Below, piece by piece: positions 2,495 through 11,361 of a DNA stretch of 64,000 nucleotides (within the stretch, counting starts at the first letter, position 1; every line of letters starts with the position of its first letter). Made by a program: the position numbers and the translations under genes. This DNA is from Pseudomonas baetica (GTDB taxonomy: Bacteria; Pseudomonadota; Gammaproteobacteria; Pseudomonadales; Pseudomonadaceae), in the NCBI RefSeq assembly GCF_002813455.1, contig NZ_PHHE01000001.1, forward strand, positions 3,100,001-3,164,000. Direction: 5' to 3'. A model generated the notes under the pieces. That model was not told where the DNA came from and made no database searches. It worked only from the letters and a program-made list of their open reading frames with translations.

Positions 2495-2515
2495 CCGGGC
2501 GCTTCAACTGGCCCC

Positions 2516-2582
2516 TTCGCGAGCAGGCTCGCTCCCACATTGGATCGCGATTCATTGGGATGAACGCGGTCAACTGTGGGAG
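2516..2582. repeat. REP pair, left part, interrupted by the IS110 element
   Basis: One REP (cgcgagcaggctcgctccca, from 2518) is followed by the inverted partner, which stops at ctgtgggag (2582). The missing half (cgagcctgctcgcgaa) resumes at 3758–3773 on the far side of the insertion sequence. Intact copies of the same pair occur many times in the window, for example at 22630 and 33728, so the original target can be reconstructed exactly. Confidence 0.9.
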
Positions 2583-2605
2583 ATTCTATGGTTGAGGGGA
2601 AGCCC

Positions 2606-3553
2606 TCAACTGACTTTTGTCTGATATTCGCTTTGCCCTTTCAGCAAGGCGAATACCACCCGAGCAAGTTTGCGAGCCAGCATCACCAACGCCTGCGTGG
2701 TGCTGAAACCCCGTGCTCTCTGGGCTTCGTAAAACCCTTTCCAGGCTATCGTACGGCTAGCCGACATCGCTGCGTTGTGCAAAAGTCGGCGGGCCTCGGG
2801 GTCTCCGCGCTTGGTCAAGCTGCGGCGACCGTCCTTTTGCCCTGATTTCGATACCCGTAAATCCATGCCCAGGAAGGCGATAAACGCATCCGCGTTGCTA
2901 AATTCTCCCCGCTGAAACGCCGTGAGCAGGCGCGCTCCGGTCAGAAATCCAATGCCCTCAACTTTCAGGCAACGCTTCAATTGGCCGAGCAAACCGGCTT
3001 GTTTGAGCTGATCGTTGATCGTCTTTTCGATCATCGTTTCAAGCCGCTGCATGGATTTTATTTGTTCAGCAAAAGCTGCCTTCAACAGCGGCTCATTCGA
3101 CCAGCTCTGCACCAGGCCGACCCTTGCCTGGACCAAAGCCGCGCGGCGGCGGAAAAGGCTCAGGAGCTGGCGGTACAGCGGTGATGGCGGGGTCCAGGGG
3201 TGCAACTCCTCGGCTTCGTTCTTCAGGTAACGGGCCAGCAGCTTGGCGTCCAAGGCGTCGGTTTTGGCGCGGATCTTCACGCCTTCGCGGTAGTGTTTGA
3301 GTTCATAGCCGCCCACCATGTAAATCGTGCAACCGGCCGCATAGGCCAAATCAGCGAATTCCAGGTGGTAGATGTTGGTTGCCTCAATGGCAATAGACAC
3401 GGGGACGAGCAAGGCCTTCAGCCACTGCTTGATGGATGTTTTGGTATTGGGAATCGCTTCAAGCAGATCGCTATCGGCCTGATAAATCACCAGTTCATTT
3501 TTGGCGACATCCACGCCAACGATCGGATTTGATAGAGCGACTGGCATTGCCAC
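2606..3553 (-). CDS. IS110-family transposase (DEDD recombinase)
   Basis: A 315-residue transposase: an N-terminal RuvC-like DEDD domain beginning with VGVDVAKNELVIY, and a C-terminal Transposase_20 domain with a conserved serine region (GIGFLTGARLLTAF to GMDLRVSKSGQKDG). I chose the GTG at 3553 because GGAGG (3562–3566) sits 8 nt upstream; the frame is open further, to a GTG at 3583. A palindrome GTTGAGGGG/CCCTCAAC (2592–2609) overlaps the stop codon. The gene looks intact, so the element may be active. It would work with a bridge RNA from the same element. Confidence 0.92.
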   Translation of the reverse strand: MAMPVALSNPIVGVDVAKNELVIYQADSDLLEAIPNTKTSIKQWLKALLVPVSIAIEATNIYHLEFADLAYAAGCTIYMVGGYELKHYREGVKIRAKTDALDAKLLARYLKNEAEELHPWTPPSPLYRQLLSLFRRRAALVQARVGLVQSWSNEPLLKAAFAEQIKSMQRLETMIEKTINDQLKQAGLLGQLKRCLKVEGIGFLTGARLLTAFQRGEFSNADAFIAFLGMDLRVSKSGQKDGRRSLTKRGDPEARRLLHNAAMSASRTIAWKGFYEAQRARGFSTTQALVMLARKLARVVFALLKGQSEYQTKVS

Positions 3554-3591
3554 AGGATTTCCTCCGGGATAAGGTTTGAGCACTTGAAGGG

Positions 3592-3740
3592 TTCACCCAG
3601 AGGCGCAGGCTTGTTCCTATCGTCGGTCTAGCCAGATGCATTCTTTATCGGCGCTTGGGTGAAAGGAGGAGGGGCGAAATCTCCCACGGTCTGTGCTGCG
3701 TCAACAGTCAGAATCGAGCCTTGTCCCTCCTCCTCCCTTC
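3592..3740 (-). ncRNA. Candidate bridge RNA of the IS110 element
   Basis: The non-coding end upstream of the transposase folds, on the transposase strand, into two hairpins. The first has a GGAGGAGG/CCTCCTCC stem (3665–3674 with 3725–3738) and a roughly 50-nt loop. In the loop, AGGCTCG (complement of 3715–3721) equals the left half of the REP target and GTGGGAG (complement of 3681–3687) is complementary to the right half. The second hairpin has the stem TTCACCCA/TGGGTGAA (3592–3599 with 3656–3663). Its loop holds ACAAG, complementary to the element's own end CTTGT, and AGAAT, equal to its other end. This is the target-loop and donor-loop layout of IS621-type bridge RNAs. Transcript ends are unknown. 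Confidence 0.6.
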
Positions 3741-3831
3741 AAGTCCTACCATACAAGCGAGCCTGCTCGCGAAAGCGGTAGGGCATTCAATACATCTCTT
3801 CGCACTTGCACTTTTCAAACGGGCACAAAAA

Positions 3832-3857
3832 AGGCCGCTTTTTCACGAAAGCGGCCT
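3832..3857 (-). terminator. Rho-independent terminator, leftward
   Basis: Perfect 10-bp stem AGGCCGCTTT/AAAGCGGCCT with a 6-nt loop. On the minus strand it is followed by a run of T (the AAAAAA at 3827–3832). It may stop leftward transcription before it enters the insertion sequence. There is no leftward gene immediately upstream. Confidence 0.55.
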
Positions 3858-3888
3858 GTCCGAAGTAGCTAAAGACCGGCGAAAAACG

Positions 3889-3925
3889 CGTAAGTTCCGC
3901 CCATAAAACAGTAACTTACGTTTTT
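3889..3925 (+). terminator. Possible rho-independent terminator
   Basis: 8-bp inverted repeat CGTAAGTT/AACTTACG with a 16-nt loop, followed by TTTTT. It would act on rightward transcription; before the insertion it may have served the fdh operon. The long loop makes it uncertain. The next ten bases form a separate palindrome, TTGTATACAA (3924–3933). Confidence 0.35.
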
Positions 3926-4015
3926 GTATACAAGTCGTGTTATTCGTCGGATTTCGATTGTCACGCTTGTTACACAGCCTCAGGATCGGCGCCGTCATCC
4001 CTTTGAGGCTCCTCT

Positions 4016-4492
4016 ATGAAGTTCTCCTCGATTCTCTTGTTGTCCCTTGGCCTGGTCAGTGGTTTTGCGTCTGCAGGCGGCACCACCGAAGCAGGTGTGG
4101 GCGGCGCATTGGGCGGGGTTCTTGGCTCGGTCGTCGGTCAGTCTTTAGGCGGCAATACAGGTTCCACCATCGGCGCAGCCTTGGGCGGCGCGGGTGGTAG
4201 TGCGGTCGGCGCAGACAAGCGCAGCCGTGGCGAAGCCGCCATCGGCGGTGCGTTGGGCGCGGCCGGCGGTAACGTCGTGGGCCGCAGCATGGGCGGCACC
4301 ACCGGCAGCCTGATCGGCTCCGCAGCAGGTGGCGGCGCCGGTGGCGCGCTGGGTAACTACATGGGCAACAAAAGCGATGACGATGATCGTCGCTATGATC
4401 GCCGTCACGATGACCGTCGCTACTATCGCGACCGTCACCCGGGTCGCGGCCACGCTTATGGCCACCGCAAACATCACAAGTATCGCGACTGA
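4016..4492 (+). CDS. Glycine-zipper exported protein
   Basis: A 158-residue protein with a signal peptide (MKFSSILLLSLGLVSGFASA, cleavage after about residue 20). It is followed by a long run of small-residue repeats (GGALGG, GGAAGG, GGGAGG patterns, about residues 27–118) typical of glycine-zipper membrane-insertion segments. It ends in a 40-residue tail of Asp, Arg, His and Tyr. Glycine-zipper proteins sit in the outer membrane or periplasm; no enzymatic role is apparent. The start has a good Shine-Dalgarno (GAGG, 4003–4006). The gene is monocistronic, closed by the terminator at 4522. Function unknown. Confidence 0.8.
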   Translation: MKFSSILLLSLGLVSGFASAGGTTEAGVGGALGGVLGSVVGQSLGGNTGSTIGAALGGAGGSAVGADKRSRGEAAIGGALGAAGGNVVGRSMGGTTGSLIGSAAGGGAGGALGNYMGNKSDDDDRRYDRRHDDRRYYRDRHPGRGHAYGHRKHHKYRD

Positions 4493-11128: not shown

Positions 11129-11304
11129 GTCGCTGCCAAATCAGCGACTCGGGCTTGGTCACCCGATTGGATCGTGTATACGCACGCGCTGTATGCTGCC
11201 GGCACCCACTTGCCTGCGGTTTATGGTGACTGTGTTTGGGACACCTTCGGGTGTGCCGGGTATGTGCGCGATCCTCACCGGTTGACCAACCCGAACACAG
11301 TCGC
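11129..11304 (+). ncRNA. Candidate structured RNA leader upstream of the small protein gene
   Basis: A long-range stem pairs GCGACT-CGGG-c-TTGGTCA (11144–11161) with TGACCAA-CCCG-aacac-AGTCGC (11283–11304): 17 base pairs with one bulge and one 5-nt side loop. It encloses a hairpin with a TTCG tetraloop (ACACC/GGTGT at 11241–11254). The 5' strand can alternatively pair in a perfect local hairpin GTCGCTG/CAGCGAC (11129–11148), excluding the outer stem. The element ends 57 nt before the ATG at 11362. Weak overlapping open frames here look spurious. Whether it is a leader or a free RNA cannot be told from sequence. Confidence 0.5.
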
Positions 11305-11361
11305 CTCCTGTCGCTTGGTCACGATGCGGTGGCTTCTTTCGAAGCAATTGAGGATTAAAAA

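Follow-up and report, generated by a model that had tools for sequence, protein, structure and literature searches.

The window, a stretch of 64,000 nucleotides from Pseudomonas baetica, contains an IS110-group insertion sequence that sits in a REP and is very probably aimed at REPs by its own two-loop bridge RNA. The element and its insertion site consist of the following parts (positions are those of the window; on the minus strand the transposase is read).

2583..3755, minus strand: IS110 element, 1173 bp between two core dinucleotides; boundaries common to seven genome copies, empty orthologous site in G011 (locus L231)
2581..2582, minus strand: core dinucleotide on the right side, CT on the transposase strand and AG in the window; confirmed by the empty site
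3756..3757, minus strand: core dinucleotide on the left side, likewise CT on the transposase strand and AG in the window; confirmed by the empty site
2576..2582, plus strand: REP head GTGGGAG, the right half of the target plus core; from the window sequence and the empty site
3756..3771, plus strand: REP stem AGCGAGCCTGCTCGCG, comprising the core and the target's left half; from the window sequence and the empty site
2606..3583, minus strand: IS110 transposase/recombinase reading frame, 325 aa from GTG 3583, with PF01548 and PF02371
2589..2612, plus strand: right-end hairpin that overlaps the stop of the transposase and resembles a terminator on the plus strand only; three such sites were found against 1.6 expected

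In the host genome (6.9 Mb, a single contig) an own-genome search found seven copies of the element. Five of them measure 1175 bp counting one core and differ from the copy in the window by 0 to 2 changes; the remaining two (L013 and L014) are interrupted by a nested insertion sequence. The position within the REP is identical for all seven, with TTCGCGAGCAGGCTCG-CT to the left and CT-CCCAC to the right on the transposase strand. A second genome, G011, has the orthologous locus with an uninterrupted REP and without the element. Its flanks, 91.9% and 91.6% identical to those of the window, join at GTGGG-AG-CGAGCC, and the 2-bp overlap is the AG core. Thus the target of the element is a REP and its core is CT; with a CT core at both ends and precise insertion it has the properties of the IS110 group. 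An earlier note on this DNA had placed the element at 2583-3755 and reconstructed its target as AGGCTCG-CT-CCCACAG; both are exact to the base. The note had also proposed aligning other copies with their insertion sites, and it is this comparison that gave one REP position for 7/7 found copies. Beyond the seven elements, the own-genome search (best 40 of 794 candidates) returned no further copy of the non-coding end.

The nested elements of L013 (G000:C1:2128900-2132474) and L014 (G000:C1:3703988-3707450) lie within the donor-loop part of the non-coding end. By reading of the sequence they are IS3-type, with ends TGTAGTGGTC and a 3-bp duplication. With opposite orientations and roughly 9 nt between them, they represent two separate hits, which may reflect a hot spot or chance. 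This IS3-type element occurs at 100% over 1153 nt or more in at least 29 places of the genome (best 40 of 77 candidates). Rfam families also match elsewhere in the window: the Pseudomonas sRNA P34 matches at full length at 3754-4116 on the minus strand (146 bits), and a C4 antisense RNA at 11219-11311 on the plus strand (66.7 bits). The P34 match extends as far as the element's left junction, which places the insertion at the 3' terminus of the model of a known sRNA family.

The transposase probably starts at GTG 3553 or ATG 3547 rather than at GTG 3583, because nearly all of the 120 homologues listed are 313-315 aa long. It scores 171.6 bits against NF033542 (cut-off 140) and aligns with the IS621 structure 8wt6 (E 8e-20, 74.7 bits). 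In this alignment, read by eye, D25, E67, D109, D112 and S247 correspond to D11, E60, D102, D105 and S241 of IS621, and mutating these five residues in IS621 abolished recombination, as reported in PMC11208158. The protein thus has the DEDD RuvC-like domain and the Tnp domain with catalytic serine of the IS110 family. There are 172 nt of non-coding DNA upstream of the reading frame and 23 nt downstream, between the frame and the right end. This is the arrangement that PMC11187229 gives for the IS110 group; the long downstream non-coding region of the IS1111 group is not found in this element. A close relative is encoded by P. neuropathica (L046, 99% protein identity). Among plasmid records there was no relative at E 1e-20, in a search that may omit records near the window.

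The non-coding end upstream of the transposase carries two guide-bearing loops.

3584..3755, minus strand: non-coding left end upstream of the transposase, predicted to be a bridge RNA; from its fold and from guide-enclosing stems in relatives
3715..3721 (complement), minus strand: left target guide AGGCTCG in loop 1; from string match and covariation
3681..3687 (complement), minus strand: right target guide GTGGGAG in loop 1, the complement of core CT plus CCCAC; from string match and covariation
3640..3644 (complement), minus strand: left donor guide AGAAT in loop 2; from string match to the element end
3610..3614 (complement), minus strand: right donor guide ACAAG in loop 2, the complement of core CT plus TGT; from string match to the element end
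2583..2587, minus strand: left donor, the right end of the element (...AGAAT); from the window sequence
3749..3755, minus strand: right donor, the left end of the element (TGTATGG); contains, together with 3748, the -10-like TATGGT of a predicted circle-junction promoter

The two hairpins, with AGGCTCG before GTGGGAG in the first loop, had been described in the earlier note, and its strings and coordinates are exact. The same holds for its match of ACAAG and AGAAT in the second loop to both element ends, though these are 5 nt each, and comparison of GTGGGAG with CT plus CCCAC bears out its statement that the right guide is the complement of the right half of the target and the CT core. String search, fold and relatives all give the order that it had likened to IS621: in both loops the left guide precedes the right guide, for target and donor alike, as in bridge RNAs of the IS621 type.

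An ordered pair of a 7-nt left guide and a 7-nt right guide at most 60 nt apart was reached by 10/20000 dinucleotide shuffles of the 172-nt end. However, the same score is reached by 37 of the 2902 other segments of that length in the window, so that the guide match alone is no proof. These segments are presumably explained by the presence of both motifs within the window's own REPs, and covariation among relatives is the stronger evidence. ACAAG occurs twice in the non-coding end, the second time overlapping loop 1. Following the left guides the RNA reads AT in loop 1 and GC in loop 2, whereas the core is CT; both core bases are therefore covered by the right guides only. In IS621 the core dinucleotide is included in all four guide pairings according to PMC11208160. 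Since the first core base is described as less conserved (PMC11208158), we take the shorter reach of the present left guides as a detail.

The transposase strand of 3575-3757 folds with a minimum free energy of -68.8 kcal/mol (z -2.97; 1/200 shuffles as low). When 34 diverse sequences including that of the window were folded singly, a stem of at least 6 pairs enclosed both target guides in 32/34, the two failures being Methyloversatilis rows (L119, L111), and a stem of at least 4 pairs enclosed both donor guides in 34/34. Stem 1 exists in versions with compensating changes: GGAGGAGGGC/GCCCTCCTCC, GGTGGGAC/GTCCCACC and GGGCGGGAC/GTCCCGCCC. RNAalifold on a MAFFT alignment gave 24 pairs, five of them changed on both sides; we prefer the single folds because the main stem looks misaligned between clades. 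At the element ends, conservation of AGAAT is partly by construction, as right ends were located by the motif ATAGAATCT, and so is the invariance of TGTATG at the left end in 34/34 aligned sequences, whose rows were located by CTTGTATG. A comparison with the handshake guides of IS621, not used as evidence, found that, of the two bases following the right target guide, the first (A) agrees with the donor in 34/34 aligned sequences and the second (T) in only part of them (by eye). The covariance-model search suggested in the earlier note yielded no bridge-RNA hit over the region with Rfam 15, which may or may not include such a family; no match over the left end reached a gathering score, the sole hit being mir-1249 (E 0.61, far below it).

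Relatives with a match at E 1e-30 or better were found in 45 of 298 genomes of the genus, and 79 loci came from named genomes, some of them probably the same strains. Before grouping, 20 of 168 transposase rows were dropped as second copies of own-genome loci or as truncated. The other 148, with usable upstream sequence, formed 45 groups; 9 of them, without readable guide or flank, were left out, and the remaining 139 merged to 105 distinct rows of guide and site. When 24 distinct left-guide segments were compared with their commonest target, 143 of 168 positions agreed. Shuffled pairings reached a mean of 112.1 (sd 4.0, maximum 130), and 0/20000 were as high as 143; the offset was optimised in real and shuffled sets, and the statistic ignores relatedness. 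The guides AAGCCCG, AAGCCAG, AAGCCGG, AGTTCG and AAGCCGCC, for example, adjoin the targets AAGCCCG, AAGCCAG, AAGCCGG, AAGTTCG and AAGCCGCC, respectively. The target guides thus covary with the natural target, as those of a bridge RNA should.

With the register held fixed, each of the seven guide positions shows agreement in 54 to 66 of 69 tree rows. The 22 types of left-guide segment require 25 changes on a transposase tree with 70 members; true retargetings are fewer, because for some types the differences lie wholly outside the seven guide letters. A tree-aware test of independent pairs had too few pairs for significance: at position -6, with seven well-supported pairs, the target changed the same way in 4.2, the other way in 0.5 and not at all in 2.2 (median p 0.22), while among the positions listed -7 showed no agreement (0.3 versus 0.4 of 3 pairs). 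Some loci fit their guides poorly, namely L024/L078 (identical junctions, probably one genome), L039, L081, L101, L102 and L150, and the Methyloversatilis thermotolerans sites shown agree at 3 to 5 of 7 guide positions.

Some junctions have features of their own. In L024 (and L078) the left junction has the 18 nt CTCCCACATTTGGTAGCT on both sides of the element, an unusual duplication that hides the expected left target. In L049 and L141, which belong to different clades, the left target is another shared repeat (CATCGTCGGAACGCCGCCCGGAGC.GGCTCG). L035 and L090, loci that may be one strain, have two elements of the family in tandem on one strand with starts 1352 bp apart, each flanked by GCAAGCTCG-CT and CT-CCCAC.

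The right guide varies less. Elements with GTGGGAG are inserted at CTCCCAC in 113 of 115 cases. All six copies read of G094, with the guide GTAGGAG, are at CTCCTAC, and a distant Nevskiaceae element (L105) has the same pairing of GTAGGAG and CTCCTAC. Six copies in G080 combine the right guide GTGAGAG with CTCCCAC, one mismatch. We do not use a Fisher test on the right guide, whose p is overstated: it omits the only CTCTCAC site and all six copies in G080, and the six copies of G094 are one lineage.

These data bear on the possibility that the transposase protein recognises REP DNA itself and that the letters in the loops are a REP relic with no guiding role. In favour of it, REPs do contain both motifs, and 37 other window segments have an equal score. 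Yet from lineage to lineage the guides change with the REP flavour, they predict which flavour is used (see below), and their letters sit in loops enclosed by compensating stems. In addition, the left flanks of L168 and L165, judged by eye, are not REP-palindrome-like and still match the guide AAGCCCG at 7/7 and 6/7 positions, which favours sequence pairing over recognition of the REP hairpin. We therefore regard a relic as very unlikely.

How a guide RNA might be made is suggested by the element ends. A -10-like TATGnT opens the left end in 48/48 distinct junctions, and the hexamer lying 17 nt upstream across the junction agrees with TTGACA at a mean of 3.1/6, against at most 1.96 at the other spacings of 12-23. 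These motifs fit, without proving, a promoter that would form in the circle. A different reading is that the functional small RNA is antisense, like Asr9 of ISPpu9, and that the sense left end mainly regulates translation. PMC8450116 does describe a stable antisense RNA made by ISPpu9 over the tnp 5'-UTR. Scanning 2500-3900 for promoters gave none on either strand and so leaves sense versus antisense undecided. The order and strand of the guides, however, agree with a sense RNA like those of IS621 and ISEc21, and an antisense RNA as the functional one is very unlikely; sense and antisense RNAs could coexist.

If the guides aim the element, they should matter where a genome offers several kinds of REP. 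We counted perfect-match sites of three REP flavours (AGGCTCG, AAGCTCG and AAGCCCG) in each of 38 genomes. The genome to which the window belongs contains 846 intact AGGCTCG sites beside the 7 filled ones, 17 AAGCTCG and 597 AAGCCCG sites, and of further flavours 111 AAGCCAG and 1 AAGCCGG; 7/7 insertions are at AGGCTCG. Among 128 loci examined for insertions, the element could not be read in L173, and two rows (G216) lacked a left guide. The test itself used elements with one of the three left-guide flavours, 74 insertions in 23 genomes, of which 65 are at a counted flavour and 9 at other sequences. Of the 65, 53 are at the guide's own flavour and 12 at another counted one, against 38.6 at the own flavour expected from site numbers (P 1.1e-6). 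For guide flavours that make up less than 70% of the three, the count is 26 out of 36 insertions, with 12.9 expected (P 6e-7). Both statistics treat insertions within one genome as independent, which is only approximately true. No such preference is seen in G205 (0/2), G267 (0/1), G290 (0/3, its AGGCTCG guides), G100 (1/3) and G214 (1/4).

G-U wobble was considered as a cause of the off-flavour insertions. Ten of the 12 mismatches are G-U compatible, yet for AGGCTCG guides so is every alternative flavour, and the overall mismatch spectrum has no clear direction, guide A over target G being commonest. Wobble is thus a possibility and not an explanation that we adopt.

The guide flavour ranks first in abundance among the three in its host in 16 of the 23 genomes (shuffled mean 8.5; 21/20000 as high), which is suggestive of guides tracking the dominant REP flavour of the host, in a statistic that ignores relatedness. 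That all agreement stems from this dominance, the element having acquired its letters with a guide that does not steer, is hardly credible: insertions by the AGGCTCG guides of G205, G267 and G290 are indeed all at AAGCTCG, the commonest flavour of the host in G267 and G290, but the excess of guide-flavour insertions persists where that flavour is below 70% of the background, and 3/4 insertions in G125 are at a flavour with 106 of 1074 sites and 3/3 in G039 at one with 333 of 1251. The proposal of the earlier note that the guides encode REP targeting is hence supported by the common REP position of the copies, by the covariation of guide and site and by the predicted flavour.

For an element aimed by its bridge RNA we propose the following course, modelled on IS621. 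Excision would join the right and left ends into a circle, whose junction is predicted to create the promoter. From there the left end would be transcribed as the two-loop bridge RNA, with loop 2 supplying the donor guides AGAAT and ACAAG to pair with the element ends and loop 1 those for the target, and the DEDD/Ser recombinase would carry out strand exchange at the CT core. Among relatives, re-lettering of the left guide to other REP stem flavours has occurred repeatedly, the right guide mostly staying on the conserved REP head. We give an even chance to a broader interpretation, that the lineage is a natural record of guide evolution in which the bridge RNA tracks REP flavours as REP families diversify: the left guide would have been re-lettered many times on the variable stem, the right guide would be nearly locked to the head, and G-U tolerant guides would span flavours during a switch. 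Natural guide-target pairs with counted background sites might then allow the mismatch and wobble rules of bridge RNAs to be read from evolution, and they make target change by RNA-guided elements directly testable. With so many REP sites (846 intact perfect and 7 filled), insertion into REPs is also a plausible safe-haven strategy.

Bridge RNAs, REP-targeting IS110 elements and predicted guides of ISPpu10 are already published; the tracking of REP flavours is the fresh part. REPs were reported as targets of ISPpu9, ISPpu10 and others in 2006 (PMC1525189). PMC11208160 reports 144 of 173 IS621 sites in one assay in E. coli REPs, draws ISPpu10 with predicted LTG, RTG, LDG and RDG in an extended figure, and describes guide-target concordance over diverse IS110 orthologues, a set which may include the present elements. 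Among the open-licence papers listed, no title or abstract opening announces covariation of guides with REP flavour.

Of the known systems, IS621 of E. coli, also of the IS110 group, shares the upstream two-loop RNA, the guide order, the CT core and insertion into REPs (PMC11208160, PMC11208158), besides the five aligned catalytic residues. It differs in its REP sequence and guides, its protein is only distantly similar (74.7 bits), and the present left guides, unlike its own, do not continue through the core. Pseudomonas putida KT2440 has ISPpu10 and ISPpu9, likened here by description: they too are Pseudomonas elements in REPs, with 2-bp repeats (PMC1525189), AG for ISPpu9 (PMC8450116). ISPpu9, an IS110 element, makes an RNA antisense to the region corresponding to the present left end (PMC8450116). 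Its sense RNA Ssr9 is described in the same paper as lying downstream of tnp, pairing with Asr9 and having orphan copies with element ends; from this account we infer that Ssr9 could be a second or stand-alone bridge RNA. ISEc21 with its seekRNA likewise has the upstream non-coding end of the IS110 group and a bottom-strand match 5' of the top-strand match, but its target is a conserved segment in certain transposase genes of the IS3 family and not a REP (PMC11187229). ISPa11, of the IS1111 group, is as described in PMC11187229 also an RNA-guided DEDD element in Pseudomonas REPs, those of P. aeruginosa; unlike in the present element, its RNA comes from downstream of the transposase and its guide order is reversed.
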